Source of the DNA: Sulfurimonas gotlandica GD1
Lineage (GTDB): Bacteria; Campylobacterota; Campylobacteria; Campylobacterales; Sulfurimonadaceae
Length of the DNA stretch: 64,000 nucleotides
Direction of reading: 5' to 3'
NCBI RefSeq assembly: GCF_000242915.1
Contig: NZ_AFRZ01000001.1
Location: forward strand, 1,922,001-1,986,000
In this document: positions 11,224 to 64,000 of the stretch, in pieces
Layout of the letters: each line of letters opens with the position of its first letter
Numbering within the stretch: the stretch's first letter is position 1
Made by a program: the position numbers and the translations under genes
The notes under the pieces: generated by a model
Seen by the model: the letters and a program-made list of their open reading frames with translations, nothing else
The model's database searches: none
What the model was told of the DNA's origin: nothing

Positions 11224-12936
11224 TTAATCAATATATCTTTTTCTTTGCAAGTGCTTGATCTTAGAGATATCTACAACTATTAAACTGTCAATACAGTTTG
11301 AAAAATCCGGGTCAATATTGTAAGCACAAAAATTTATGCCACCTTCATCACATAAATCACTATACTGCTTGTATAGAGTTGGGACACTTGTACCCATAAC
11401 TGCTAGTGCTCTTTTCAAGTTCTTGAAGTTTTCTTTATACTCTAAATCACTAAATTCATTTCTTAGATTTCTAATCAAGTCTGCATCTGTTTTATAGTTG
11501 TAAGGGCTCTTCGCACTTGCTAGATTGTCTTTATCTCTGAAATTTTTATCGTAGAAGTAGAGAATAGTATCTTTTGCTATTTTTGGATAAGTGGCGCTAA
11601 GTGATACTGGTCCATAGAGATATTTTATTTCAGGGTTATTTCTAATATATGCTCCTATCCCGTACCATAGATAATCAAGAGCTCTGCTTCCCCAGTACTT
11701 TGGTTGAACGAAACTTCTTCCAAGTTCAATTGAGTTGTCAAAATATTTGTCAAAGCTTTCATTAAAGTTAAAAAGTGTGCTTGTGTAGAGTGCAGCTTTA
11801 CCAAGTTTTTTAATTATATCTTTACATTCTGCTATTCTATATGCTCCTACTATTTCTAAATCTTCATCATCCCAAAGAATGATATGCTTATAGTATCTAT
11901 CATACTTATCTATGTCTCGTTTTTGATTTATTCCTTCACCAACTTTTCGAAAAGATAACTCTCTAAGACGGCCGATTTCATTTAGAAGGCTGGAGTTAGG
12001 ATTTATACTACTGTATAGATAAATCTTTTTGTTATCTTTGGTGTTTCCAAGCAGTTGAGCATTTTTGAGCTCTTTTTTTAAATCACGTCTATCTTCTGGA
12101 TGAGCGATGGCCTTTTGTGTTAAAAAAAAGCTTTTAGAGTTTTTTAGATTGTAAACTTGTTTTTTGTAAAGTTCTAAAATTTTGTCTTGTTTTAACCCTT
12201 TTGGAATTATGTTTTCATTAGGGATAATTTCACCAACAGTGATATCAATAGTTTTATTTTTTTGCTTAAACATCTCATTTGGTAAAAGCAGAGTAGAAAG
12301 TTTTTTGTTAATTGTAGATATTGAGTAGAATGCTTTAGAATTCTTTCCTCCTATAAATACCGGAATTATCGGAGAGTTACTTCTATATGCAAACTTTAAA
12401 AAGCCTTTTTTCCATGTTTTGTCTTTTACACCTGTTGAACTTGCGCGACTTACTTCTCCAGATGGAAATATTATAAGAGCCATATCATTATCAAGTGAGT
12501 CATATATCTCTTGTATAGCTTCTTTTTTTTGTCTGGCTGTGAAATTATTTACATGTATAAAAAGAGAATCCAAAACTTTAAATTCTTTTAAAAAATCATT
12601 TACAACTATTTTTATATCTTTACGTACCCTACTTAGTAATTTAATAAGTGCAAAGGCGTCAAGTGCACCTAGCGGGTGGTTTGCAATGATGACAACTCTG
12701 CCGGATGAGGGAATATTTTCTATATCCTTATCAGATGCTAAAAAGTTAAAATCAAAGTAATCTAAAACATTGTCTATAAATTCAAAGCTTCCAAGATGAG
12801 CATTTTTATGTACAAATTCATTGATCTCATCCTGATGAACAATAGAGTCGGAAAATTTTGTAATAGTACTTTTTAAAATCTTACTGTTTTTAAGTTTTGG
12901 ATATTTATCTGTAATCATTTTTTCTACGCTAATCAT
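11224..12936 (-). CDS. olsF: OlsF-like bifunctional acyltransferase (ornithine-lipid type)
   Basis: 570 residues from the ATG at 12936, preceded by AGGGAG at good spacing; an in-frame ATG 17 codons upstream has no ribosome site. Two domains are fused. The N-terminal lysophospholipid-acyltransferase (PlsC/OlsA-like) domain has NHPLGALD (about residue 86-93), FPSGE (about 157) and PVFIGGKN. The C-terminal GNAT-fold OlsB-like domain begins about residue 324 with LRELSFRKVGEG, then RDIDKYDRYYKHIILWDD and IVGAYRIAE. This order matches OlsF, which makes ornithine lipids by N- then O-acylating ornithine. The aminolipid product is inference; glutamine- or lysine-containing analogues are possible. Confidence 0.7.
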   Translation of the reverse strand: MISVEKMITDKYPKLKNSKILKSTITKFSDSIVHQDEINEFVHKNAHLGSFEFIDNVLDYFDFNFLASDKDIENIPSSGRVVIIANHPLGALDAFALIKLLSRVRKDIKIVVNDFLKEFKVLDSLFIHVNNFTARQKKEAIQEIYDSLDNDMALIIFPSGEVSRASSTGVKDKTWKKGFLKFAYRSNSPIIPVFIGGKNSKAFYSISTINKKLSTLLLPNEMFKQKNKTIDITVGEIIPNENIIPKGLKQDKILELYKKQVYNLKNSKSFFLTQKAIAHPEDRRDLKKELKNAQLLGNTKDNKKIYLYSSINPNSSLLNEIGRLRELSFRKVGEGINQKRDIDKYDRYYKHIILWDDEDLEIVGAYRIAECKDIIKKLGKAALYTSTLFNFNESFDKYFDNSIELGRSFVQPKYWGSRALDYLWYGIGAYIRNNPEIKYLYGPVSLSATYPKIAKDTILYFYDKNFRDKDNLASAKSPYNYKTDADLIRNLRNEFSDLEYKENFKNLKRALAVMGTSVPTLYKQYSDLCDEGGINFCAYNIDPDFSNCIDSLIVVDISKIKHLQRKRYID

Positions 12937-13105
12937 GATACTCCCTGTATTCTGGTTTGCAAAAATTATAATGCAGAGATATTTCAAGATGGTTACATCA
13001 AAAAATATGACTAAAAAATCTACAAATTTTTATTTATTCCAATTTAAAGATTTTAAAGTAAACTAGAGTATATGAAAAATTGTTTTATAACGTAAAGGTT
13101 GGGGT

Positions 13106-13627
13106 ATGTTTTTTTTAGTACAAGAGAGTTTGAAAAAAGTTTTTTTTAAATTGATACTCCTTTCAGTTGTAGGTATCATTAGTTCTTTAAACGCAGTTGA
13201 TTACAGTGGTGAGAAGTCATATAGTATAAAACTTCCTTACAAGGCTTGTACTGTCTCTCCGATTCCACGTGAAGCTTTAGAAGCTGGAATTATTCCTATA
13301 AATACTGCAAAAGCAAAAAAGTTTTTTATAGAAGGGGCGCTATTTTATGATGCCAGAAAAAAGAGCGACTACAGTAAAGCACATATAAAAGATGCTAAAC
13401 CCATCATATTTGATGATTCAAAAGCAAAACATACTCTTATTAGTCTTCCAAAATCTCTTGAGAGAAATATGATCTTTTATTGTTACGGAGATAGCTGTGC
13501 TAGTTCTTATGAAGCAGCATTATCGGTACTAAAACATGGTTATAAAAATGTTTTTTGGTATGTCAACGGATTTGATGATTGGAAGAAAAAAGGTTATCCC
13601 GTTGAATCAAGTAAGTTAAACGATTAA
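13106..13627 (+). CDS. Exported rhodanese-domain protein
   Basis: 173 residues. A hydrophobic N-terminal signal (FFKLILLSVVGIISSLNA, cut after about residue 30) precedes a single rhodanese domain: ALFYDARKKSDYSKAHIKDA (strand and helix before the active site), the Cys loop IFYCYGDSCASSYEAA, and the closing GFDDWKKKGYPV. Rhodaneses move sulfane sulfur. A periplasmic copy in a sulfur-oxidising lineage could serve sulfur handling, which is inference. The loop has two cysteines, and the usual arginine is not visible. The stop overlaps the convergent gene's stop by three bases. Confidence 0.85.
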   Translation: MFFLVQESLKKVFFKLILLSVVGIISSLNAVDYSGEKSYSIKLPYKACTVSPIPREALEAGIIPINTAKAKKFFIEGALFYDARKKSDYSKAHIKDAKPIIFDDSKAKHTLISLPKSLERNMIFYCYGDSCASSYEAALSVLKHGYKNVFWYVNGFDDWKKKGYPVESSKLND

Positions 13628-49610: not shown

Positions 49611-50618
49611 ATGAGATACATAGAAAATGACTTAAAAGACAAAACAATTTTAATAACTGGTGGAGCAGGGTTTATCGGCTCTAACTTAGCTTTTTATTTT
49701 CAAAATAATCATCCAGATGCAAAAGTAGTTGTTCTAGATAGCTTCAGAAGCGGTGAAACATTTTCAAACGGAAACTTGAAGAGTTTTGGACATTTTAAGA
49801 ACCTTATAGGATTTCGCGGTGAAGTTATCAGTGGAGATATAAATGACAAAGAATTACTGCTTGATTTAGAGATAAACTATAAATTTGACTATATTTTTCA
49901 TGAAGCTGCTATATCGGACACAACTGCATTAGAACAAGACTTAATGATTAAGACAAACGTTAACGCATATAAAGATTTACTTGAGTTAGCTATAAGACAC
50001 GATGCAAATATGATATATGCATCTTCGGCTGCGACTTATGGAAATGCAGAATCTCCTCAGAGAGTTGGAAGAGAAGCGCCTCAGAATGTTTATGGTTTTT
50101 CTAAACTAAGTATGGATAATTTAAGCCGTGAGTACATGAAAGAGTGTGATATTTCTATAGTTGGACTTAGATATTTCAATGTTTATGGAGCAGGTGAGTA
50201 TTTTAAAAACACTACAGCATCTATGGTTTTACAATTTGGGCATCAATTATTAGCCGGCAAAAACCCTAGACTTTTTGAAGATAGTGATAAAATCCTTCGT
50301 GATTTTATATATATAGAAGATATAGTTCAAGCTAATGTAAAAGCGATGCAACCAAAAGAGAGTGGTATTTATAATGTAGGAACTGGTAAGGCTAGAAGTT
50401 TTCAAGATATAGTAGATATCCTACAGCGTGAACTTGGCACATCTCTTATTTGTGAATATATTCCAAATCCATTTATAGGCAGTTACCAATTTCATACAGA
50501 AGCAGATATTACGACAACAAGAGAAGTTCTTGGTTATGAGCCAAGGTTTGTAATGGAAGAAGCTATAAAATCTTATGTTGGTGAAATTAAAAGAATATAC
50601 GACGAAGAAGTTAAATAA
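49611..50618 (+). CDS. hldD: ADP-L-glycero-D-manno-heptose 6-epimerase
   Basis: 335 residues. An SDR-family epimerase converting ADP-D,D-heptose to the L,D form. NAD(P) motif GGAGFIGSN (about 17-25), catalytic YGFSKLSMD (Tyr-x3-Lys), and AISDTTALEQD typical of HldD. The start MRYIENDLKDKTILITGG carries a short extension before the Rossmann strand. Overlaps hldE by one base (TAATG). Confidence 0.95.
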   Translation: MRYIENDLKDKTILITGGAGFIGSNLAFYFQNNHPDAKVVVLDSFRSGETFSNGNLKSFGHFKNLIGFRGEVISGDINDKELLLDLEINYKFDYIFHEAAISDTTALEQDLMIKTNVNAYKDLLELAIRHDANMIYASSAATYGNAESPQRVGREAPQNVYGFSKLSMDNLSREYMKECDISIVGLRYFNVYGAGEYFKNTTASMVLQFGHQLLAGKNPRLFEDSDKILRDFIYIEDIVQANVKAMQPKESGIYNVGTGKARSFQDIVDILQRELGTSLICEYIPNPFIGSYQFHTEADITTTREVLGYEPRFVMEEAIKSYVGEIKRIYDEEVK

Positions 50619-52042
50619 TGAAAAGACTTAAAAACTTTACTCCAAAGATATTAGTAGTTGGTGATCTTATGATTGATCATTATTTATGGGGTAGCTGTGA
50701 AAGAATATCTCCAGAGGCGCCAGTACAGGTTGTAGATATTTCAAAAGAGACAACAGTTCTTGGTGGGGCTGGTAATGTTATAAATAACCTTAACGCTCTA
50801 GGAGCTAAAGTTAGTGTCAGTAGTGTAATAGGTGATGATGATAATGGAGTAGAGCTTATTAATATGTTGAATGCAATTGACGTAGATAGTTCAAACTTAA
50901 TAGTTCAAAAAGGTAGAAACACATCTAAAAAGAGTCGTATTATCGCTGTTAGTCAGCAAATTCTTAGATATGACAAAGAGAGTAAGAATGAGATTGATAG
51001 TGAATCTGTAAGGAAAATAATAGATTTAATTTCTAGTGAGATATCTTCTTATGACATTGTAATACTTTCTGACTATGGTAAAGGTGTTTTAACTCCTGAA
51101 CTTTGTCAAGGTGTTATCTCTCTTGCAAATAAAAATAATGTAAAAGTTTTAGTGGATCCAAAAGGAAGTGATTTCTCAAAATACAAAGGTGCATATCTTT
51201 TAACACCAAATAAAAAAGAAGCTATTCTTGCTACTAACATTAATATTAAAGATGAAGGCTCTTTAAAAGAGGCGCTTGTTAAATTGAAAAATGAAGTTGA
51301 TTTAGATATTTCTCTAATAACTCTCTCTGAAGGCGGAATTGCTACTTACGACAGTGAAGTGAAAAAGTTTCCTACAGTCGCTAAAGAAGTGTTTGATGTA
51401 ACAGGTGCGGGTGATACTGTTATAGCATCTATTGCTTTTGCGCTTAGTGCTGGAAAGTCTATTGAAGAGACTGCTTCGTTTGCAAACTTGGCTGCTGGAG
51501 TTGTTGTTGGAAAAATTGGTTCTGCAACTGTTACTCTTGAAGAGATTGAAGAATATGAAGCATCTCTGCACAAAAGTACATCAGATGCTCACATTAAGAG
51601 TTTTGAAGATATAGCGCAAATAGTAAATCGCTGTAGAGCTAGCGGCAAGAAAGTTGTCTTTACTAATGGTTGTTTTGATATTTTACATGTTGGTCATGTT
51701 AAATACCTTCAAGAAGCAAAAAGTTTTGGAGATGTACTTATAGTTGGACTTAACTCCGATGAGTCAGTATCTAGACTTAAAGGTCCGACTCGCCCTGTAA
51801 ATATAGCACCGGACAGAGCATATATATTGGCAGCGCTTGAAGCTGTTGATTTTGTTGTACCGTTTGAGCAGGATACTCCGCATGAACTTATAAAAATGAT
51901 AAAACCAGACACCCTTGTAAAAGGTGGTGACTACAAAGGAAAAGATGTTGTTGGAACTGAATTTGCTGGTGAGTTGAAGCTTGTTGACTTTGTTAATGGT
52001 AAAAGTACAACAAAAACAATCCAAAAGATACAAGGAAAGTAA
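50618..52042 (+). CDS. hldE: Bifunctional heptose 7-phosphate kinase / 1-phosphate adenylyltransferase
   Basis: 474 residues, the full fused form. The N-terminal PfkB-family kinase has ILVVGDLMIDHYLWG, GGAGNVINNLNALGA and the ATP/anion hole VTGAGDTVIA. The C-terminal nucleotidyltransferase starts about residue 344 with VVFTNGCFDILHVGHVKYL (HxGH). It acts on either side of GmhB in the ADP-heptose pathway. Coupled to hldD and to the following outer-membrane gene by one-base overlaps. Confidence 0.97.
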   Translation: MKRLKNFTPKILVVGDLMIDHYLWGSCERISPEAPVQVVDISKETTVLGGAGNVINNLNALGAKVSVSSVIGDDDNGVELINMLNAIDVDSSNLIVQKGRNTSKKSRIIAVSQQILRYDKESKNEIDSESVRKIIDLISSEISSYDIVILSDYGKGVLTPELCQGVISLANKNNVKVLVDPKGSDFSKYKGAYLLTPNKKEAILATNINIKDEGSLKEALVKLKNEVDLDISLITLSEGGIATYDSEVKKFPTVAKEVFDVTGAGDTVIASIAFALSAGKSIEETASFANLAAGVVVGKIGSATVTLEEIEEYEASLHKSTSDAHIKSFEDIAQIVNRCRASGKKVVFTNGCFDILHVGHVKYLQEAKSFGDVLIVGLNSDESVSRLKGPTRPVNIAPDRAYILAALEAVDFVVPFEQDTPHELIKMIKPDTLVKGGDYKGKDVVGTEFAGELKLVDFVNGKSTTKTIQKIQGK

Positions 52043-52635
52043 TGTTTAAAAAACTTGGACTACTAGCTGTATGTGCAGCATCTGCTTTTGCAATGCATAA
52101 TGTAGAGCTTAATATAAATGATAAAGATTTAGAGTTTGGTGCAAAAGTTGACATGGGTCAGTTTAATGATACTGTTGAGCCAGACAGTGTTTTCGTAGGT
52201 GCAAAAGTTTTACACGGTAGTGTAGATAATAGTGAATTTTCCAGTAGTAGCGATATGCAGGATTATTATGAAGTTAACTTTTTAATGCAAAGAAAAGTTG
52301 AAGCTACAGATCTTGTTATAGGATTAGGGGTAAAGCTAAATGGTGCTAAAAATTTTAGTAGTGTACCGCTAGGTGCTGAGGCTAGTTACAAACTTGCTTT
52401 TAGTGATAAAATGCCACTCTATGTTAAAGGTGCAATTTACTACGCACCTGAAGTTTTATCTATGCAAGATGCAAAAAACTTTTTAGAGTACCGCGCTAGC
52501 CTTGATCTTGAAGTGATTAAAAATGGTAGTGTAACTGTAGGTTATAGATCTTTGGATACTAACTATACGGCTAGTGCAGGTGGAGATAAAAACTACAATA
52601 AATCTGTTTATGTAGGATTTAAATTCGGTTTTTAG
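52042..52635 (+). CDS. YfaZ-type outer-membrane protein
   Basis: 197 residues: signal peptide MFKKLGLLAVCAASAFA, then an eight-stranded-like barrel pattern ending NYNKSVYVGFKFGF with terminal Phe, the usual outer-membrane insertion signal. The segment LNINDKDLEFGAKVDMGQFN fits the YfaZ family, whose function is unknown. Placed in the hldDE operon by a one-base overlap, so it may share LPS-linked regulation. Confidence 0.82.
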   Translation: MFKKLGLLAVCAASAFAMHNVELNINDKDLEFGAKVDMGQFNDTVEPDSVFVGAKVLHGSVDNSEFSSSSDMQDYYEVNFLMQRKVEATDLVIGLGVKLNGAKNFSSVPLGAEASYKLAFSDKMPLYVKGAIYYAPEVLSMQDAKNFLEYRASLDLEVIKNGSVTVGYRSLDTNYTASAGGDKNYNKSVYVGFKFGF

Positions 52636-52755: not shown

Positions 52756-53904
52756 TTAGAGCTGTGATTTCTCTTTTCGTGCTGCTTTATAAAAAAGTTT
52801 CTGAGTTGAAATCTCTTTTGGTATTGGAGTTTCATTTATAATATACTCACTCAGTATTTTTGCCAAATATGGTCCAAAAACAAATCCCCTTGAACCAAGC
52901 GCATTAATCATATACAAATTCGGATAATAGACAAGTGAGTCTTGTGAAATCTTTGTACCGTTTTTTATAGAGGGATATTTTTTTAGTGAACTCTCATAAT
53001 CTACAATCTTGCCAACTACCGGAAAATAACTGCTAATTGTGGCTCTTGCACCTTTGTACGTCTTTACAACTTCCAAATTTTCCAAATTTATTAATTCATT
53101 GGCTTTAGTTAAAAGAGAATCAATCTGTTGTTTGTCGGTGTTTACATAAAATATACACTTGTCACATGTAGTAATACACTCTATTTGAGATGAATTATGT
53201 CTTTCATGAGTTGCTCCTATAGCAACAGTACCATCATTTTTATTTGTAGAAATCGAGATGGATTTATGAATATTAAATGGAATATTTGTTGTTGTCTTAA
53301 CATCAATTCTAAGCCCGAAAATAGCTGATATATTTATATATGGGAGATATGCTAATGATTTACTTACACCCTGTGTCAGTATGATATTTTTTGCTTTTAT
53401 ATCATCAATCTCATAAAAACTATTTTTATATACTAACTCTTGCAGATCTTTTTTGTAAAAATCACAGCCTTCGACCATTTTATTACAAATACTAAGTGGC
53501 TCTATAACAGCTGCATCTTTGTAAAAATATCCATCAATACCTTGAAAGTCATTTGACATCTTTTGTAGCTTCTCTGCATTAAAATAATTATAATCTATCT
53601 CATTATTTTCTAGTTTTTCTTTTGAAAAATTATCGTTTGCAACGCGTAATACACCTTTTTTATTAATAAAATCAGGTGTTAGTTCTTCATAAAAATTCAT
53701 GGAGAAGTTAAGAGCTTCGTTTACAAAAGTGTTGTAACTATTTTTACCTCCAGGAAGAGGAGAAAGAAATGCTCCTGCAACCCCACTTGCCCCTCCGGCT
53801 ATTCCTTCTCTATCTACTATAGCTACTCTTTTGCCACTACGCTGTAAAAAATGGGCAATGGAGCATCCGGCAGAACCAGCCCCTACGATTATAAAATCAT
53901 ACAT
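52756..53904 (-). CDS. FAD-dependent oxidoreductase, MnmC C-terminal-like
   Basis: 382 residues, DAO fold. FAD motif DFIIVGAGSAGCSIAHFLQRSG at the N-terminus (given as GAGSAGCSIAHFL), then GGASGVAGAFLSPLPGG, resembling the GASG region of the MnmC oxidase domain that processes cmnm5U34 of tRNA, and LGSRGFVFGPYLAKIL near the end. The MnmC methyltransferase domain is absent. It may be a stand-alone MnmC2-type enzyme or an amino-acid oxidase. Directly abuts waaF and is the last gene of the operon, yet is functionally unlike its envelope neighbours. Confidence 0.78.
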   Translation of the reverse strand: MYDFIIVGAGSAGCSIAHFLQRSGKRVAIVDREGIAGGASGVAGAFLSPLPGGKNSYNTFVNEALNFSMNFYEELTPDFINKKGVLRVANDNFSKEKLENNEIDYNYFNAEKLQKMSNDFQGIDGYFYKDAAVIEPLSICNKMVEGCDFYKKDLQELVYKNSFYEIDDIKAKNIILTQGVSKSLAYLPYINISAIFGLRIDVKTTTNIPFNIHKSISISTNKNDGTVAIGATHERHNSSQIECITTCDKCIFYVNTDKQQIDSLLTKANELINLENLEVVKTYKGARATISSYFPVVGKIVDYESSLKKYPSIKNGTKISQDSLVYYPNLYMINALGSRGFVFGPYLAKILSEYIINETPIPKEISTQKLFYKAARKEKSQL

Positions 53905-54879
53905 TTAAATAATTGATTTTACAGTTTCTATTACTTCTGCAGCTGTGATTGTTTTCATGCAGTCGTGATGTCCTAGTGGACATTCTCTTTTCATGCACGG
54001 AGAACAATCCATCTCATGTCTTACTATTGCACTCTTTTCATTCATCCACTGAGATGTTTCTTTATGTTTTGTTGGTCCAAAAATAGCAACTGTTGGTACT
54101 TGGTAAGATGCCGCTACATGCATTGGTCCACTGTCATTTGTAATAAATAGTGAGCATCCAGCGATATTTGCGCAAAGTTCTTCTATCTTTGTTTTTCCAG
54201 CTAGATTTTTATAGTTTGTAATATTGAAATATTTTAGATTTGATTCTATCTCAGATGCCATTTCTACTTCATTTGGTCCGCCAAAAATTACTATGTCATA
54301 TTGATTTGAAAACTCTTTTGCAACCTCGGCAAATCGCTCAGGATACCAACGCTTAGCACTTCCGTAAGTGGCGCCTGCATTGATGCCAAGAGTTAATTTA
54401 TCATATCTTTTAGGCTCTATATATAGAGCTAGCTTTGGTACTTGAGCATTCCAATGGTCTGCATCTGTCATTGCTAGTTGAGCGTACTGTTTTACAAGAT
54501 GCTGAGTGGTTGAGATTTTTGGCGTATGTGATAGTAAAAACATCGAGTGCCAAGATCTCCTAGAGATGCAAACGACAGTTTTTGTAAATCTCAAAAGCAG
54601 TGAAGCGTGAAGTTGATTTCTAAAGTTTACAGCTAGATTAAATTGTCCTAGCTCACCAGCAAGTCTGTATGTTGCTATATATCTGTTAGATGCTTTTTTA
54701 GTATCATCAACTATCGCTCTCTCACAAAGAGGATGATGTTTAAGTGCTTCAATACTAACATAGCTACCAACGAATGTAAACCTTGCATCTCTATAGTGAG
54801 ATGCTAAAAGCTCAATAGCAGGAGTAGCCATAATAGCGTCTCCGAGCCAATTTGGCAGAATAACTAATATCTTCATCAC
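53905..54879 (-). CDS. waaF: ADP-heptose:LPS heptosyltransferase II
   Basis: 324 residues, GT9 family. It adds the second L,D-heptose to the LPS inner core using ADP-heptose made by the gmhA/gmhB/hldE/hldD products encoded nearby. Motifs are ILVILPNWLGDAIMATPAIELL (as LPNWLGDAIMATPA), GINAGATYGSAKRWY (donor site), FITNDSGPMHVAASYQVPTVAIFGPT split as NDSGPMHVAAS and VAIFGPT, and the WaaF-type ending CSPCMKRECPLGHHDCM. Overlaps the upstream LtaS-like gene by four bases. Confidence 0.94.
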   Translation of the reverse strand: MMKILVILPNWLGDAIMATPAIELLASHYRDARFTFVGSYVSIEALKHHPLCERAIVDDTKKASNRYIATYRLAGELGQFNLAVNFRNQLHASLLLRFTKTVVCISRRSWHSMFLLSHTPKISTTQHLVKQYAQLAMTDADHWNAQVPKLALYIEPKRYDKLTLGINAGATYGSAKRWYPERFAEVAKEFSNQYDIVIFGGPNEVEMASEIESNLKYFNITNYKNLAGKTKIEELCANIAGCSLFITNDSGPMHVAASYQVPTVAIFGPTKHKETSQWMNEKSAIVRHEMDCSPCMKRECPLGHHDCMKTITAAEVIETVKSII

Positions 54880-56789
54880 TTAGCCCACCTGTTTTTCTCT
54901 AGCAGTCCTGCTTCTGCTGTATCCACACTAAAGAGTAGTTTTTTCATCTTTTGAATATTTTCTTGGCTGCCAACTTGTTCAACAATATCTTTAAAATTGT
55001 ATTTAATATATCCATTATTTGTAATAAGACCGATGAGGTTACCTGCATAAAAGTAAACTAACCTCTCGTTTACATCTTCATCAAAAAGTGAACTTCCCAT
55101 GGTAGCTATATCTGCCTTCCAGCCTAACATATCTACTATAGTAGGGAATATATCATTATGCCCGCCCAGAGTTTTTACTTCCATAGGTTTGAATATCTTT
55201 GGGGCATATATTATTAGTGGAATCCTAAAATGCTCTATAGATGTTAGTGGCTTGTCATCTGGACGATACTCTCTTGCAATTTGGTTTAGAGCATCTCCAC
55301 TTCCATGATCAGATGTGAAAATGAATATTGTTCTATCAAACCATGGCTCTTTTTTAGCACCCTCTATAAAACGACGTATTGAATCATCAGCATATATATA
55401 GGCATTCAGAGCGCCGTTATAATTTTTAAGGTCATGTGGATATCTCTCATACTTTTTACTTGGGAGATGATAATCAGAGTGAGTTGTATCAGTAAAGGCA
55501 AAACCTAAAAAAGGTTCTTTCATACTGTTTAGTTTTTTATGATAAAAATCAAGCATATTAAAGTCATAAGTACCAGTTAACGGCTCTCGTCCAGCATCTA
55601 CTTCTTCTACATTTGGCATATCTTGCGCACCATAATATTCATCAAATCCAGCTAATGCACTTACTGAATCTACTCTGTAAGAACGCCTATTAGCTGCTTG
55701 CATAGAGATAGTGCTATATCCATTGTCTTTTGCAACACTCCCTAGATAGCTTAGGTTTGATAGTTCCAGTCCTTTACCTAAGTATTGAGCTCCAGCAGGT
55801 ATGGTAACACCAGTAAACATAGAAGTTATTCCAAATATGGAACGATATCCATTTGAGTAGAAGTTTGTAAACTTTAGTCCTTCATTACTTAAACGTTTAA
55901 AATATGGTGTGACATTTAACTCTTTGTACTTAGTGAAACCGTCAATATGTTCAGCCCCGAAAGATTCCAGCAGTACAATAACAACATTGTATTGTTCCTT
56001 GTCTTTCTTAGAGTACTGACGAAGAAGAGGGTACTCTTTGTTAACAAATGGAGCATTTGAAGTTTTTAGTGCATCTTGTGTTGTTTGTATAGCTTCATCT
56101 AAATCTACTAGATTATGTTTAGCTGTTTTTTTAGCAGTTCTATAGATAGTAAAAAAGCCGTTTAGTGCAAGATTTCCACTACTTACCTTATTTACAGCAT
56201 AGGCGTCACTGCTTCCAAAGCTTTTGCCTGCAAAACTATTTCTAATACCAATAAACAGAACCAAAATAGTTACTATAGTTAGTATAAGAAGTTTTTTCCC
56301 AGATATGAAACTCTCTAGTTCTGATGAGAAAAGTTTGAAAACAAGATATAAAAATGAGATGCTAATTAGTATTGCACCAAGTGTAAATGGAAGCATTGAA
56401 CCAAATGCCATGCCAAATATAATATCCATATCATCACTAAGGTTAAATATTTCATTTGAAATATGTCTATGAATATAGTCATAGTAAAGTACATCACTAA
56501 AACTAAGTATAAATATTATGTTTAATAAAATAGCCCAAAGCAGTGCTACTTTAGCTCTGTATTTAGGTTTTTTTATAAAAAGAAGGGTAAGAATAAATAG
56601 AGATGAAAATGTAAAGATTGTAATCATGTCTACACGAAAACCCATCAATAATGAAGTGTAAAATTCACCTGTTGTAAGGTTGGAAAAATCATCTATATAA
56701 AAGTTATATAGAGTTAGTCTTATTGCCATTAAGACTATAAAACTAAAGATAACTAATGCAAGTATTTGAGTGAGCTGATTTTTTCGCAC
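54876..56789 (-). CDS. LtaS-type phosphoglycerol transferase-like protein, copy 1
   Basis: 637 residues. Five N-terminal membrane helices (about 8-200), then a periplasmic alkaline-phosphatase/sulfatase-fold domain. Metal and catalytic motifs are VLLESFGAEH, the nucleophile region YSNGYRSIFGITS (Ser where LtaS has Thr), and FTSDHGSG. The family transfers sn-glycerol 1-phosphate from phosphatidylglycerol to a glycan or lipid (LtaS, OpgB) or phosphoethanolamine in related branches. The donor and acceptor here are unknown. Overlaps waaF by four bases and the PAP2 gene by one. Paralogue at 58716-60626. Confidence 0.85.
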   Translation of the reverse strand: MRKNQLTQILALVIFSFIVLMAIRLTLYNFYIDDFSNLTTGEFYTSLLMGFRVDMITIFTFSSLFILTLLFIKKPKYRAKVALLWAILLNIIFILSFSDVLYYDYIHRHISNEIFNLSDDMDIIFGMAFGSMLPFTLGAILISISFLYLVFKLFSSELESFISGKKLLILTIVTILVLFIGIRNSFAGKSFGSSDAYAVNKVSSGNLALNGFFTIYRTAKKTAKHNLVDLDEAIQTTQDALKTSNAPFVNKEYPLLRQYSKKDKEQYNVVIVLLESFGAEHIDGFTKYKELNVTPYFKRLSNEGLKFTNFYSNGYRSIFGITSMFTGVTIPAGAQYLGKGLELSNLSYLGSVAKDNGYSTISMQAANRRSYRVDSVSALAGFDEYYGAQDMPNVEEVDAGREPLTGTYDFNMLDFYHKKLNSMKEPFLGFAFTDTTHSDYHLPSKKYERYPHDLKNYNGALNAYIYADDSIRRFIEGAKKEPWFDRTIFIFTSDHGSGDALNQIAREYRPDDKPLTSIEHFRIPLIIYAPKIFKPMEVKTLGGHNDIFPTIVDMLGWKADIATMGSSLFDEDVNERLVYFYAGNLIGLITNNGYIKYNFKDIVEQVGSQENIQKMKKLLFSVDTAEAGLLEKNRWAK

Positions 56790-57451
56790 TAGATGGAATC
56801 CTCTTTAAATACTAGTTTATAAAGTACATGTGTTGCAATATAAACAATGAAAAAGGATGTTACAACATCACTAAAAAAGTGACCGCCTGCTGCCATCCTT
56901 GCTAAACTTACAAGTACTCCATAGATAATAACAGTAGTGATAAAGAACTTTTGTCTTCTCTTAGCTAAAAGAGCAAAACCTAAGAGGCTAAAGGCAGCGG
57001 CTGCATGACCAGATGAAAAAGAGTAACCGCCTTGATTACTGGGTATAAAAGCCGGAGTAAACTCTTTTGTTCCACCAAAGTCTATAATCTGAGCAGGTCT
57101 CGCTCTTCCCCAATTCTCTTTTAAAGTAGTATTGACTATGAGAGCAGGTGCTATTGTTAGAAAAAGAATTATAAAAAGCATAGTCTTAGAATTTATACCT
57201 AAAAGATTTTTCTTTTTTACATAGTTATAAATGAATATTGCTATGCTTGATAGTGCAAAGATTATAATAAGAGGCTTTACAGAGTGGTAGAGTATGTCTT
57301 CTATCCAGGAGCCGTTCAGTGTAAATGATTTTCCATCATAAAAAAGAGAAGCCACATATAGATCTATTTGCGGTAGGGAAACAAAGATTATAGAAGATAC
57401 TAAAAAAAGTAGCCAGAAATAGAGTTTTACATTTAAATATTTTTTATTCAT
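56789..57451 (-). CDS. PAP2-family membrane phosphatase
   Basis: 220 residues with about six membrane helices. All three PAP2 motifs are intact: KENWGRARP (K-x6-RP), SFSSGHAAAA (SGH) and ARMAAGGHFFSD (R-x5-H-x3-D). Such enzymes act on undecaprenyl pyrophosphate, phosphatidylglycerol phosphate or lipid A phosphates. Placed between the glycosidase-like gene (8 bases) and LtaS-like copy 1 (one-base overlap), it may process the lipid products or acceptor of those enzymes; this is inference. Confidence 0.9.
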   Translation of the reverse strand: MNKKYLNVKLYFWLLFLVSSIIFVSLPQIDLYVASLFYDGKSFTLNGSWIEDILYHSVKPLIIIFALSSIAIFIYNYVKKKNLLGINSKTMLFIILFLTIAPALIVNTTLKENWGRARPAQIIDFGGTKEFTPAFIPSNQGGYSFSSGHAAAAFSLLGFALLAKRRQKFFITTVIIYGVLVSLARMAAGGHFFSDVVTSFFIVYIATHVLYKLVFKEDSI

Positions 57452-57459
57452 AGATGCAA

Positions 57460-58734
57460 TTATACCGCGTCTTTAATGTATATATATAAAGGAGATGAAC
57501 CAATGTTTAAAGTTTTATTTTCTATTAGTTTTCCACTGATTGAATAGACTTCAAAAAAATCTTCATTTTTTAGCGTTGTTGGTTTAAGTGTCCAGTGGAT
57601 TTGCAACAGTTTGTTGTTTATTAAGCATTGCAGTATGTAGTAGCCTCTTTTTATGTCCAGTCGTAAAAACTGAGCATTTGTTAAATTTTTAAGCATAAAC
57701 TTATATACATTAAATGCTGAACGTTTTCTTATACTACTTCTGTTGTCAATCAGACCATATCCTGGAGCTATTAACTGATGCCAAGAGAGAGAATCAACCT
57801 GTTGAGATGCAAAAGCTAATAGGTGGTATCTAAGCATAAAATCTTCATATAACTCTTCACTTACACATTCATACTCACTTGTTGGAGCATATGGAGCTGT
57901 ACCTGTTATTGGCCAGTTTGTCTCAGTGATATGAAGTTCATGCTCACTTTTGGGACTCATCCAAACCATAGTGCTAAGTAATGCTATTTTGTCAGATAGA
58001 GCAAATCCCATCTGCATGTTCTCCGGAGCACCGCGTCTATCTACATAAAGAAGAGAAGCAATACCATTGTAGTGGTACTTAAAAAAGTTAAAAAGGGTAT
58101 GTGCTGTAAAATGATACTCAAAGTCTATTACACCACTTCCAATAAGCTTGATATTTGGAAATTCCGCTTCTCTTAAATCATAAGCTGTTTTATAAAATTT
58201 GTTATATTCGTCAACGCTAAAAAAACCCCATTTGGCTCTGTTGATTGTTGAACCGATTTCGTAAATATCTACTAGCCCATCTAAAGATGCAAAAATTCCT
58301 CTTAAGTCTTTTTGGAAAAGTTTTAAGTCTTCTATGTGTTCTCTATCTTGAAGAATTTTAAGTGTAACTTTCCTATGCTTGTTCTGCAATAAAAAGTTTT
58401 TTAACTCATTGATTGTATTAAGCTCCCAAAGTTTTACACGAACAAGAATTCTTTTTAAATCTAACTCTTCCAATAGTTCAAGTGTTAGCTCAGGTTCTCT
58501 TTGGTAATCAACTCCTAGAGAAAAAAATGTTTCTGAATCTACTTCTTTTCTTTTTATATAAGGCATCATTATTATTGAAATAGGGAGTATGACAAGAGCT
58601 GTAAAAACAGTTTTGAAAAGTGAGAAAAACTCACGTTGGCGCATCTGCTTTTTATATGTTCTGTCTTTTAGTTGTGCAGGTTGGTCGGAATATTCATCCC
58701 ATGAAAAAGGAGCTTTCAATCTTTCTTCATCCAC
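57460..58734 (-). CDS. Membrane-anchored glycosidase-fold (GH-A clan-like) protein, possibly lacking its acid/base
   Basis: 424 residues. A cytoplasmic N-terminus, one TM helix (about 40-60), then a TIM-barrel-like run outside the membrane: FSLGVDY (strand 1), RILVRVKLWE (2), KVTLKIL (3), DIYEIGSTIN (4), IKLIGSG (5), ASLLYVDRRG (6), ELHITETNW (7, candidate nucleophile Glu271) and SLSWHQL (8). In GH-A enzymes strand 4 ends in a GNEP-like motif with the acid/base Glu; here it reads GSTI. A C-terminal beta domain follows. It could be a transglycosidase or a non-catalytic glycan binder. Overlaps LtaS-like copy 2 by 19 bases. No family name is certain. Confidence 0.7.
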   Translation of the reverse strand: MDEERLKAPFSWDEYSDQPAQLKDRTYKKQMRQREFFSLFKTVFTALVILPISIIMMPYIKRKEVDSETFFSLGVDYQREPELTLELLEELDLKRILVRVKLWELNTINELKNFLLQNKHRKVTLKILQDREHIEDLKLFQKDLRGIFASLDGLVDIYEIGSTINRAKWGFFSVDEYNKFYKTAYDLREAEFPNIKLIGSGVIDFEYHFTAHTLFNFFKYHYNGIASLLYVDRRGAPENMQMGFALSDKIALLSTMVWMSPKSEHELHITETNWPITGTAPYAPTSEYECVSEELYEDFMLRYHLLAFASQQVDSLSWHQLIAPGYGLIDNRSSIRKRSAFNVYKFMLKNLTNAQFLRLDIKRGYYILQCLINNKLLQIHWTLKPTTLKNEDFFEVYSISGKLIENKTLNIGSSPLYIYIKDAV

Positions 58735-60626
58735 TTTGAGTTTTTCAGCAGATGAGCCTGCGCAGAATCAATACTCAGAAGCAATTGTTGATTTTCATCT
58801 GATATAGATCCTTTTTTACTGATAAGATTTTTAAAGTTATAAAAAATAGAACCATCATAATCGCTAAGTCCGACGATGCTTCCCATCTTTACAAAGGCAA
58901 ACCTATTTTTAACACTTTCATCAAATAGTGAGCTTCCTATGGTTGTAAAATTGTTCTGCCATCCAAGAATATCAATAATTGTTGGAACGATATCCCCTTG
59001 TGAAGATATGATATCTGTTCTTTTTGGTTCTATTAGTTTTGGTGCATATATGATTAGCGGTATATGAAATTCAGGTAAATATATATTTTCTAATTTCACC
59101 TCTTTTTCATTGCTAATTTTTGTCTGATTAGCATGATCAGCTGTAAAAATGAATATAGTGTTATCAAACCAAGGCTCTTTTTTAGAAGCTTCCATAAACT
59201 CTTTTATTTGAGTATCTACATAGTTTAGTGTATTTAAAAATCCGTTTTCAGATTTTACATCATGAGGGTATTTCTCCCATTGTTTACCTGGAGAGTAGAA
59301 TGGTGAATGAGTAGACGCAGTAAAACAAAAGCTAACAAAAGGCTCTTTAATTGTTTTTAGCTTCGAGGATAGAAATCTTAGGCTGTTACCATCCCAAGCA
59401 CCATAGTTTGGTTGTCCAGTTTCTTCTCCTGTGCGCTCAATATCTTCTGCTCCATAGTACTCTCTAAACCCGGCAAGTGCACTTAGTTTATCTACTCTAA
59501 AAGAGCCTCTGTCTGAACTTTGCATCGCTAAAGTAGAATACCCATTTTTATGTGCCATTTCTCCGAGGTATGAAGGGTTGTATAGTTCTAATCCTTCACC
59601 TAAGTTTTCAAAACCTACAGGCTGAGTAAGTCCTGTATATATAGTTGTTATTCCTTCTTGTGAGCGTTGGCCGTTTGCATAGAAGTTCGTGAAAAGTTGT
59701 CCCTCATGTGCCAGTTTATCAAGAGTTGGAGTGACTTTAAAGTTGTTGTGTGCAAGTTCGTCTAAATATCTTGCACTAAGACTTTCTATCATGATAATAA
59801 CAATGTTGTAGTTATTTTTTGTAGTTGGTTTTAGTTTTCTCATCAAAGGGAAGTTATTGTCCATAAATTCAAATTTCTCAGAAGCTAAATTGTCTTTAAC
59901 TACTTGCACTGCTTGGTCTGATTTTATAGCTGAGTGATCTGTACAGTTTATTGTTCCTCCACGGTAATAGCAGAAGAAACCATTAAGAGCTAAGTTTCCA
60001 GAAGAGACTTTATTTACGGCAAAGGCATCTGAAGTACCAAAGGAGATGCCATCAAGTTTTCCACGGATGCCTATAAAAGCAATAATTATTACGAGAAGCA
60101 TATTCGCCCATTCTCTTTGTCTGATAGTTTTGTTTTGTATATCAGAACCAAAAACTTTATAGAAAAAATATACAATTGTAAAATAAAATATTGTACCGAG
60201 TATAGTTTGAATAAGATAAAAATCAACTACCATATCTACTAAAATGCCTACATCATTTCCAATCAGACTAAGTTCGTTATTTAGATGTCTATTAACAAAT
60301 CCAAAGTATAAAATATCACCTATATTAAAGAAGATAATCCCACCTAAGATAGCACCCCATAAAACTCCTAAAGAGCTTCTGTATATTTTGTTGGTAGTAA
60401 ATTTAAACGGTAAAAGTAGGATTAACCAAATAATAGAAGTGAATGTAAAAATTAGTGCAACATCAACACGAACTCCCATAAAAAAAGACTTTAATGTTTC
60501 AATAAATGTTAAATCACCAAAATAATCAAAATAAGAAAAATAGAAGAAAAGTCTAATGGTAGTAAAGAGTAAAATACTGAAAATAACAGCTGAAATAACC
60601 TGAGTGTATCTGTTTTTAAAATGCAA
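58716..60626 (-). CDS. LtaS-type phosphoglycerol transferase-like protein, copy 2
   Basis: 636 residues, first gene of the operon, clearly paralogous to 54876-56789: the same five-helix N-terminus, the shared VNKVSSGNLALNGFF segment and the same sulfatase domain. Motifs are IMIESLSARY, YANGQRSQEGITT (Ser at the nucleophile position) and FTADHANQT, where DHAN replaces the DHG of copy 1. The DHAN change and the altered residues around the nucleophile suggest a different substrate. The ribosome site AGGA lies eight bases before the ATG. Confidence 0.85.
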   Translation of the reverse strand: MHFKNRYTQVISAVIFSILLFTTIRLFFYFSYFDYFGDLTFIETLKSFFMGVRVDVALIFTFTSIIWLILLLPFKFTTNKIYRSSLGVLWGAILGGIIFFNIGDILYFGFVNRHLNNELSLIGNDVGILVDMVVDFYLIQTILGTIFYFTIVYFFYKVFGSDIQNKTIRQREWANMLLVIIIAFIGIRGKLDGISFGTSDAFAVNKVSSGNLALNGFFCYYRGGTINCTDHSAIKSDQAVQVVKDNLASEKFEFMDNNFPLMRKLKPTTKNNYNIVIIMIESLSARYLDELAHNNFKVTPTLDKLAHEGQLFTNFYANGQRSQEGITTIYTGLTQPVGFENLGEGLELYNPSYLGEMAHKNGYSTLAMQSSDRGSFRVDKLSALAGFREYYGAEDIERTGEETGQPNYGAWDGNSLRFLSSKLKTIKEPFVSFCFTASTHSPFYSPGKQWEKYPHDVKSENGFLNTLNYVDTQIKEFMEASKKEPWFDNTIFIFTADHANQTKISNEKEVKLENIYLPEFHIPLIIYAPKLIEPKRTDIISSQGDIVPTIIDILGWQNNFTTIGSSLFDESVKNRFAFVKMGSIVGLSDYDGSIFYNFKNLISKKGSISDENQQLLLSIDSAQAHLLKNSKWMKKD

Positions 60627-60651: not shown

Positions 60652-60657
60652 ATTATA
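60652..60657 (-). promoter_or_regulatory. Probable -10 box of the envelope operon
   Basis: ATTATA, read as TATAAT on the minus strand (GGATATAATTC), 26 bases before the LtaS-like copy 2 start. On the plus strand TAAAAT at 60670-60675 may serve ugd divergently. Confidence 0.5.
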
Positions 60658-63009: not shown

Positions 63010-64000
63010 CTATTTAAAATTATTTTTATTATCCTCTAAATATTCTTTTAGCTCTACTTCATTTTTTATAAAATATTTTTGATTGTTTTTAGCAACATAA
63101 TCTATAAATACGTTGTGAACATAGTTTTCATTTAGATGAGACGTTCTATCACTAAATGCTATATATTTATTATCTTTCACTAAATTTGATATATCATCAA
63201 TATACCATAGCGCATGAAACCCTGTTATCCCACCATTTAGTAGTTTTGAGTATTTATCTTTCATGATTTTAATATCCATAAGTTTTAAGTACTTTTGGTA
63301 GTGAGTCGGTGTATAGTAGTCTATATGTATATTGTTAGCTTTACAAAACTTATCAATGTCTAGTAGTGCTTGAATACCATCTTCTTGGTAATATTGTGGA
63401 GTTGCTTTTGATGTGTATTTATCTGGTACATGAAATGATTCATTTGGATTTGATCTAACCATTGAACCATTTTTCTGTAAATAATAATCATAGCTATTGT
63501 TTATATTCCATTCTATGTCATTATATAGCTGCATTAATTTGTTTTTATTTACGTAAGATAAGTCCTTAAGTACATAACTCCAGTAAGAAGCATGGAACTC
63601 TATATCATAGTACTTGGAGAATGAATCAGATTGGTCACTGCCATTTAAACAGTGATCATCAACCAAGTAATAAATTCTATGTATATTTGACAGCCTTTTA
63701 TTGTCAAGTTGTTTTAAGAAGTTTAAAACACTTAAAGAGTTTCCATATAGTGATGAAGAGAAATTTAGTATAGGTATATTCGAATTGTCTGTTTGTAACC
63801 TTTGACTTCTAGATGTTCCAAATATGATTGAGTGTTTTTTTTCTTTGAGCATATCAAATAGTTTGATTGAGTAATATTTTGTAAAATAAAAGTTTTTATC
63901 TGTCAAGCTATAAGGGAGTAATCTATATGGATTTACAAGCACAAACAGTATTATTATTGAGCCAATAATTATAGAAGTTATAATTAAAAAACTTTTTATC
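63010..64000 (-). CDS. Membrane-anchored SGNH-hydrolase-like protein, 5' end outside the window
   Basis: At least 330 residues. The frame stays open to the window edge, where it adds a TM helix (SFLIITSIIIGSIIILFVLV) before VNPYRLLPYS, so the GTG at 63942 is not the start and the gene begins beyond base 64000. The outer part has SIIFGTSRSQRL, like the GTS/GDS nucleophile turn of SGNH esterases and AlgJ/AlgX-type O-acetyltransferase helpers, and SDRTSHLNENY near the end, which could supply the Asp-x-x-His pair. Such genes often sit next to MBOAT acyltransferases. Converges on the GT9 gene. Confidence 0.68.
   Translation of the reverse strand, partial: IKSFLIITSIIIGSIIILFVLVNPYRLLPYSLTDKNFYFTKYYSIKLFDMLKEKKHSIIFGTSRSQRLQTDNSNIPILNFSSSLYGNSLSVLNFLKQLDNKRLSNIHRIYYLVDDHCLNGSDQSDSFSKYYDIEFHASYWSYVLKDLSYVNKNKLMQLYNDIEWNINNSYDYYLQKNGSMVRSNPNESFHVPDKYTSKATPQYYQEDGIQALLDIDKFCKANNIHIDYYTPTHYQKYLKLMDIKIMKDKYSKLLNGGITGFHALWYIDDISNLVKDNKYIAFSDRTSHLNENYVHNVFIDYVAKNNQKYFIKNEVELKEYLEDNKNNFK

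Follow-up and report, generated by a model that had tools for sequence, protein, structure and literature searches.

The window analysed here, a 64,000-nucleotide stretch of the Sulfurimonas gotlandica GD1 genome (positions 1922001 to 1986000 on C1; the genome is one contig of 2.95 Mb), contains a tight minus-strand operon that runs from position 60626 down to 53905. Its five genes putatively encode a sulfatase-fold phosphoform transferase (LtaS1), a membrane-anchored protein with a predicted TIM-barrel fold (hereafter TIM), a PAP2 phosphatase, a paralog of the first transferase (LtaS2), and the lipopolysaccharide (LPS) heptosyltransferase WaaF (Table 1). An initial annotation, made from the sequence of the window, had read the first four genes as a possible single system for an envelope phosphoglycerol glycan. 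Across related genomes, the conserved unit is TIM plus waaF, not the four-gene set.

The junctions are those the initial annotation gave: LtaS1 and TIM overlap by 19 bases, TIM and PAP2 are separated by 8, PAP2 and LtaS2 overlap by 1, and LtaS2 and WaaF overlap by 4, with waaF belonging to the same operon. The same five-gene order recurs in nine other loci measured, from two genera, with genes overlapping or separated by gaps of at most 59 bases; this order is more than chance. The 19-base overlap arises because the first GTG was taken as the TIM start. In a search of 298 genomes (see below), TIM residue 1 was aligned in just one other genome, the remainder beginning at residue 3 or later (mostly 6), and a start at the TTG of position 58719 would give a 4-base overlap with the LtaS1 stop. 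These alignments suggest that TIM probably starts at 58719 and is 419 amino acids long.

Linkage of TIM to WaaF

Among 298 sampled Campylobacterota genomes, TIM was present in 54 and WaaF-type proteins in 274. A 55th TIM hit (G253; 23% identity, E 4e-4) was discounted; with this weak hit included, TIM occurs in 21 of the 58 sampled genera of the phylum. TIM adjoins waaF, or is split from it by LtaS2 and/or PAP2 alone, in 48 of the 54 genomes, 40 of whose neighbourhoods were read directly while the other 14 were placed from match coordinates and further loci. The two genes lie on one strand and no more than 100 bases apart in 30 of the 40 neighbourhoods read, and LtaS2 and/or PAP2 alone separate them in four others (L054, L055, L057, and L067); ten of the remaining 14 genomes have WaaF within 150 bases, three have LtaS2 between (one also PAP2), and the last is the window. 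TIM in other families often follows a waaC-like glycosyltransferase family 9 (GT9) gene and precedes WaaF, with overlapping ends (e.g., L045–L049).

A second sample covered the closest relatives of the window TIM: of 387 relatives confirmed in 84,980 species genomes, the 80 best loci, mostly from Sulfurimonas, were retained. Nine loci were dropped (eight at a contig end, one with a split TIM frame), and the window was added, giving 72 rows. TIM loci run into WaaF in 63 of the 71 closest-relative loci. Since seven contigs are common to both samples, the two are not independent. The best 80 of the 387 relatives belong to Sulfurimonas or other Campylobacterota wherever a taxon is named (two are labelled just "bacterium"), and the nearest named relatives are Sulfurimonas. 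Searches of viral contigs returned four pattern stretches and no TIM relative, and searches of plasmids returned no TIM match.

One TIM clade (L111, L130, L144, L146, and L153; support 98 on the tree) has no same-strand WaaF following TIM, so that TIM outlasts its usual partner there. Both L111 and L144 carry a more distant WaaF with hldE/hldD upstream.

Distribution of LtaS1, LtaS2, and PAP2

The three genes that accompany TIM and WaaF in the window vary widely among the closest relatives. None of them was present in 43 of the 72 rows, while the others had PAP2 alone (8), LtaS2 alone (3), PAP2 with LtaS2 (8), PAP2 with LtaS1 (2), or all three (8, including the window); a sister genus also has the full set, in two genomes (L067 and L156). 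LtaS1 was accompanied by PAP2 in 10 of 10 rows. In these counts, L080 was coded as having none despite an LtaS2-WaaF pair 6 kb on, L126 was coded as having none despite a broken LtaS2 before TIM, and three rows carry no assigned LtaS1 state. On the TIM tree, PAP2, LtaS2, and LtaS1 require at least 9, at least 11, and at least 6 changes, respectively, with 25 of 69 inner branches open. PAP2 and LtaS2 co-occur (both in 16 rows, one or the other in 10 and 3, neither in 43; Fisher p 7e-7).

Within the 298-genome sample, LtaS2 orthologs (at least 50% identity) were found in eight genomes, all adjoining WaaF and contiguous with TIM in seven; a contig end truncates the locus in the eighth (G287). Two of the eight lie in other families (L154 and L155, with the order GT9-TIM-LtaS2-WaaF), so TIM-LtaS2-waaF recurs in three families. 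Orthologs of PAP2 (at least 55% identity) occurred in five genomes, always directly after TIM, with the next matches (36–47%) located elsewhere. At these identities, no ortholog of LtaS2 or PAP2 was seen away from the TIM-waaF locus in the 298 genomes. LtaS1-type matches (40–44% identity) occurred in five genomes, directly before TIM in four and 5 kb off in G252; all other LtaS-type matches listed had 36% identity or less.

Other genes also occupy the space between TIM and WaaF. At L152, a PMT_2 glycosyltransferase of the GT-C type (12072–13514) takes the LtaS2 slot while LtaS1, TIM, PAP2, and WaaF are kept. YrbL-family genes (PF10707) occur in the TIM-WaaF slot at L099 (2094–2675) and L119 (2490–3065), and beside TIM in a second family at L036 (9378–9992), L039 (11061–11675), and L043 (11049–12599), one of these being the C-terminal part of a 516-residue protein; a diacylglycerol kinase gene shares the slot at L119. 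The YrbL-family proteins beside TIM may act on the LPS core, and the slot occupants in general (PMT_2, YrbL, and diacylglycerol kinase) might have envelope lipids or sugars as their targets. Diacylglycerol is described as a by-product of phosphoethanolamine transferases in the available text of PMC12658134.

A second type of locus was seen away from TIM, in which distant LtaS-like genes, often two, stand beside a distant PAP2 gene (G186:C3:98957-101489, G252:C1:213094-217554, G287:C1:309164-313631, G200:C123:10083-13951, and G126:C4:31507-33898).

Fold, active site, and topology of TIM

TIM matched no Pfam or NCBIfam family, 41 TIM relatives matched no glycoside hydrolase (GH) family in Pfam at E ≤ 1, and sequence searches of the PDB with single proteins and with a profile gave no glycosidase match. 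Its AlphaFold model (predicted local distance difference test, pLDDT, 92.5) is nonetheless a clan GH-A barrel with a C-terminal beta domain, as in GH39 enzymes and PslG. The best structural match was BcGH39 (5jvk; Z score 32.5, root-mean-square deviation, rmsd, 2.6, 337 residues aligned), followed by PslG (9g17, 5bx9, and 4zn2; Z 31.3–31.6, rmsd 2.8–2.9, 346–347 residues), after which matches fell to Z 25.2.

Only half of the expected catalytic pair is present. Among 105 distinct TIM sequences (identical ones counted once), the GH39 nucleophile position at the end of strand 7 (strand 267–272) is Glu271 in all 105, whereas the acid/base position after strand 4, residue 163, is T in 91, A in 12, V in 1, S in 1, and Glu in none. 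Position 163 was assigned from the predicted strand 157–160, not from a residue alignment with PslG; its spacing from the nucleophile, 108 residues compared with 111 in PslG, agrees with the assignment. PslG uses Glu276 as nucleophile and Glu165 as acid/base, according to the part of PMC11912335 available. Further invariant acids in TIM are D204, E206, D232, and E289, and the invariant residues also include R166, K168, R233, R234, H319, and Q320. Positions that are invariant in 104 or more of the 105 sequences are concentrated on the catalytic face (31 of 96 positions compared with 17 of 189 elsewhere, p 1.6e-6), an enrichment that holds at two other loop widths (p < 1e-4).

Conservation extends to the N-terminal tail (W12..SDQP..K28), in which W12, D13, S16, D17, Q18, and K28 are invariant or nearly so. 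In equal 15-residue flanks of the helix at 36–59, lysine plus arginine average 6.7 before and 3.5 after, with the excess before the helix in 104 of 105 sequences. This charge bias suggests a cytoplasmic tail and favors a periplasmic barrel.

LtaS-type proteins and PAP2

LtaS1 and LtaS2 are paralogs (42% identity over 640 columns) whose closest sequence relatives with a solved structure are the uncharacterized Vibrio protein VP1736 (3lxq) and then LtaP and LtaS. The LtaS2 model (pLDDT 79.7, with poor loops) gave the same ranking: Z 43.3 to VP1736 (rmsd 2.8, 384 residues aligned), 33.7–36.3 to LtaP/LtaS, and 30.5–32.5 to YejM/PbgA. No EptA structure was among the 50 structural matches listed for LtaS2, which does not exclude a likeness to EptA. 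Similarly, the N-terminal Pfam domain of EptA-type enzymes was not among the LtaS1 and LtaS2 families at E ≤ 0.001. In the LtaS2 model, the PF00884 domain is preceded by predicted membrane helices at 5–30, 40–69, 75–108, 133–155, and 165–183.

The metal and nucleophile residues E275, S317, D494, and H495, placed through an alignment of LtaS1 with LtaS, are invariant in 31 sequences, the nucleophile of this family being Ser instead of Thr. The glycerol-phosphate pocket of LtaS is formed by W354, R356, and H416; at these positions LtaS1 keeps the His and replaces W354 with F and R356 with V, with an invariant Arg adjacent. Because W354 and R356 are not kept, phosphoglycerol is unproven as the group that these proteins move.

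LtaS1 (12 rows, support 100) and LtaS2 (27 rows, support 99, spanning three families) formed separate clades in a quickly built tree, which makes the pair look like the product of an old duplication whose copies keep nearly constant positions. Where present, LtaS1 is the gene before TIM, except at L056 (5 kb away), and LtaS2 follows TIM (or PAP2) and precedes WaaF in the intact loci read; at L080, 6 kb separate TIM from LtaS2. Separate clades in such positions suggest that the two proteins are not interchangeable, and nothing beyond that. The tree omitted eight loci (seven repeats shared by both samples and L102), kept one L113 protein, and left out frames shorter than about 560 residues or below 75 bits; long branches fell outside both clades. 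A third gene of this kind lies elsewhere in the same genome (C1:2907280-2909091, equivalent to L001 1198–3210), where it encodes a 670-residue protein that matches PF00884 more strongly than any other in this genome; its neighbour is presumably a pseudouridine synthase.

In PAP2, the motif residues K111, R118-P119, G148-H149, R185, H191, and D195 are invariant in 28 of 28 sequences. LpxF was the top NCBIfam model for the window protein (E 1.7e-30) and matched 28 of 28 relatives. The score against PAP2_lipid_A was 50.2 bits compared with a cut-off of 275, below the NCBIfam equivalog cut-off.

Gene calls and flanking genes

All open reading frames of the region stood where the initial annotation had placed them, but the boundary it gave, 52756, marks where a sixth gene ends; that gene encodes a flavin adenine dinucleotide (FAD) oxidoreductase and follows waaF with 0 bases between. 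Since this gene follows waaF only at L054, L075, and L080 among the neighbourhood maps, it looks like a passenger. The candidate −10 box was read directly from the sequence and is weak because promoter-like sites are no more frequent in the region than in shuffles (31 observed compared with 35.4); a terminator scan of the region likewise gave no signal above shuffles.

Table 1. Features of the TIM-waaF operon and its immediate surroundings (positions within the window).
Feature	Coordinates	Strand	Basis
LtaS1, predicted LtaS/OpgB-like phosphoform transferase, sulfatase fold	58716..60626	-	PF00884, 118 bits (cut-off 25)
TIM, predicted inner-membrane-anchored GH39/PslG-fold protein	57460..58734	-	AlphaFold model, structure matches, 105-sequence conservation
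PAP2 phosphatase, LpxF/LpxE-like	56789..57451	-	PF01569, 79 bits
LtaS2, LtaS1 paralog	54876..56789	-	PF00884, 129 bits
WaaF, LPS heptosyltransferase II, usual TIM partner	53905..54879	-	TIGR02195, 186.2 bits (cut-off 134.6)
FAD oxidoreductase, MnmC C-terminal kind, sixth gene, directly after waaF	52756..53904	-	NCBIfam
Candidate −10 box, TATAAT	60652..60657	-	26 bases before LtaS1 start; weak
Uridine diphosphate (UDP)-sugar dehydrogenase gene, divergent, upstream of LtaS1			Pfam match; 76-base gap to LtaS1 holds candidate −10 box

Genes at 49611–52042 are presumably hldD and hldE, for heptose synthesis. At 52042–52635 lies a gene for a 197-residue protein that had no NCBIfam match and neighbours hldE at many related loci. 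A 310-residue open reading frame at the end of the LPS region (63010–63942) matched neither Pfam nor NCBIfam.

Interpretation

Gene content, gene order, linkage, predicted folds, and conserved residues were all observed, and they bear out what the initial annotation saw: two paralogous LtaS-type proteins, both far above the PF00884 cut-off and nearer LtaS than EptA; a membrane-anchored barrel protein, whose glycosidase-like fold held when TIM was modelled; and a PAP2 phosphatase, which resembles the lipid A phosphatases. Its interpretation is partly supported. The four-gene set that it expected in relatives does recur, but those four genes are not the conserved unit.

We favor the reading that this is an LPS inner-core/lipid A locus in which TIM and WaaF are constant and LtaS1, LtaS2, and PAP2 are optional phosphate decorators, and assign it a probability of roughly 0.55. 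Since TIM is tied to waaF, the LPS core or lipid A is a more likely substrate than the separate phosphoglycerol glycan first proposed. WaaF would add the second heptose in the cytoplasm, and TIM, anchored to the inner membrane through a single N-terminal helix with its GH39-like barrel and charged, invariant cleft in the periplasm, would bind or remodel the WaaF-made core after export. PAP2 may then remove a phosphate in the manner of LpxF or LpxE, exposing a position, and LtaS2, or in fewer genomes LtaS1, may move a phospholipid head group onto LPS, as EptA follows LpxE. Topology, acceptor, head group, and TIM activity are what we infer in this scheme.

TIM itself could be a retaining (trans)glycosidase that works without the usual acid/base Glu, e.g., on a phosphate-activated sugar donor, or a binding platform for the LPS core. 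Glycosidases with good leaving groups, such as plant myrosinase, tolerate loss of the acid/base residue, and for this reason a phosphate-activated donor is the preferred catalytic reading; a scaffold role seems about as likely. A bolder proposal, which we regard as rather unlikely, is that TIM founds an undescribed family of retaining (trans)glycosidases, anchored in the inner membrane, that lack the acid/base Glu and use a phosphate-activated donor to add or exchange a sugar of the inner core in the periplasm, after which LtaS2, LtaS1, and PAP2 would trim and attach phosphates on the resulting core. If true, LPS core would be glycosylated after export, outside the usual cytoplasmic scheme.

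Several observations weigh against an LPS locus built around TIM and WaaF. Six of the 54 TIM genes break the rule of linkage: an O-antigen-ligase gene lies between TIM and WaaF at L052, WaaF is 5.6 kb from TIM at L037, the stretches read at L038, L041, and L051 contain no WaaF, and L059 ends at a contig edge. A strand switch precedes WaaF in 8 of the 71 closest-relative loci. TIM is missing from about 220 of the 274 genomes that encode a WaaF-type protein, which means that core synthesis does not generally require it. LtaS1, LtaS2, and PAP2 are tied to LPS by gene position, and a tree test with 3 usable pairs (p = 1) did not show the association of PAP2 with LtaS2 to be independent of ancestry. 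The LtaS residues W354 and R356 are not kept in the LtaS1/LtaS2 family, the PAP2 score of 106.6 bits is far under the LpxF cut-off of 400, and the loss of the acid/base Glu may mean that the barrel is not catalytic.

In another view, TIM is a pseudo-glycosidase that does no bond chemistry and would serve as a scaffold or sensor, binding the LPS core (or, via its tail, WaaF) and recruiting modifiers. Being a version of the favored reading, it is compatible with it, and we hold it tentatively, at less than even odds. The absence of the acid/base Glu in 105 of 105 sequences and the near-invariant tail are consistent with such a role, but Glu271 is equally universal and the invariant D204, E206, D232, and E289, mostly at the catalytic face, seem beyond what binding needs. 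Alternatively, the LtaS-type proteins may transfer phosphoethanolamine, and the locus would then be a standard EptA-like set for lipid A or core modification. The known operons that pair a PAP2 phosphatase with a transferase are of the LpxE-EptA kind in the available text of PMC4730577, and EptC is described as modifying core heptose (PMC12658134, seen in excerpt). LtaS2 groups with VP1736, LtaP/LtaS, and YejM by both sequence and model, and the EptA N-terminal domain is not among the families reported; the phosphoethanolamine alternative is thus unlikely in our estimation, and phosphoglycerol appears the more likely of the two head groups.

Two further explanations concern the gene set as a whole. 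The gap between TIM and WaaF may be a hot spot for unrelated LPS-locus genes, with the decorators having no link to TIM, as its variable content (PMT_2, YrbL, DagK, and Wzy_C) and the many changes on the tree might suggest; the absence of LtaS2 and PAP2 orthologs, at the identities used, from other places in the 298 genomes and their fixed order make this improbable. The reading with which the window was first approached, a self-contained four-gene system in which TIM shapes a separate phosphoglycerol envelope glycan that one LtaS copy primes and the other extends, was dropped once neighbourhood maps were available, and we consider it very improbable. It would account for several loci in which all four genes keep one order and lie close together, for the presence of PAP2 in all 10 rows with LtaS1, and for the place of LtaS and LtaP as nearest solved structures after VP1736. 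Against it, TIM most often stands without the other three and with waaF as its usual partner, LtaS2 accompanies TIM and WaaF in two other families that lack LtaS1 and PAP2, and PAP2 can be alone with TIM. The separate clades of LtaS1 and LtaS2 and their nearly fixed positions do not support a division into priming and extension.

In the textbook account, the LPS core is built by cytoplasmic glycosyltransferases. A protein with a glycosidase fold that is conserved, is usually tied to waaF, and has lost half its catalytic pair in all sequences aligned points to a missing step in LPS core synthesis, and genotypes with none to three decorators offer a natural series for direct comparison of LPS phosphate chemistry.

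Comparison with known systems

Among the titles and abstracts listed in capped searches of open-licence PMC papers, none describes TIM or the gene set. The initial annotation's view that no such set had been described in Campylobacterota needs tempering: a map of Arcobacter waaC/waaF lipooligosaccharide (LOS) clusters labels yejM, eptA, diacylglycerol kinase, an alkaline phosphatase family gene, and YrbL (PMC6477937). This is the same kind of locus; in the portion of that paper available, the labels carry no interpretation and TIM is not named. Arcobacter LOS clusters are also described in PMC5495459 and PMC2147049, as far as their accessible text goes.

Among transferases, LtaS, LtaP, OpgB, and YejM (PbgA) share with the window proteins the PF00884 domain, several N-terminal membrane helices, and the metal and nucleophile residues; the window genes differ in lying in a Gram-negative LPS locus, in their Ser nucleophile, and at the W354/R356 positions. 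Phosphoglycerol occurs on the O-chains of several Gram-negatives (PMC3210612, in part). The LpxE-EptA relay resembles the locus in combining a PAP2-type phosphatase with a sulfatase-fold phosphoform transferase in one operon, as reported for Helicobacter pylori and Capnocytophaga canimorsus, with overlapping genes in the latter (PMC4730577, in the text available). It differs in that the window transferases are of the LtaS/OpgB type, the locus adds TIM and waaF, and PAP2 is nearest to LpxF models while far below their cut-off.

For TIM, the closest parallel is PslG, the exopolysaccharide glycosidase of Pseudomonas aeruginosa, together with BcGH39: the fold is shared over nearly the whole barrel and the C-terminal domain (Z 31.3–32.5, 337–347 residues), a Glu occupies the nucleophile position in both, and the PslG gene also lies within a polysaccharide synthesis locus, its product being located at the inner membrane in the part of PMC9075953 available. 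In contrast, TIM is only 12–16% identical, has no sequence-level match to GH39, lacks the equivalent of PslG Glu165, sits with waaF, and has a conserved N-terminal tail. A second parallel, compared by description only, is gene 2898 of the Acinetobacter baumannii core locus, a predicted glycosyl hydrolase needed for full outer core, with a role that was unclear to its authors in the accessible text (PMC10936431). That gene concerns the outer core, unlike the inner core proposed here, but it likewise resembles a glycosidase gene and lies in a locus for LPS core, and the TIM family provides a second, conserved case beside it.

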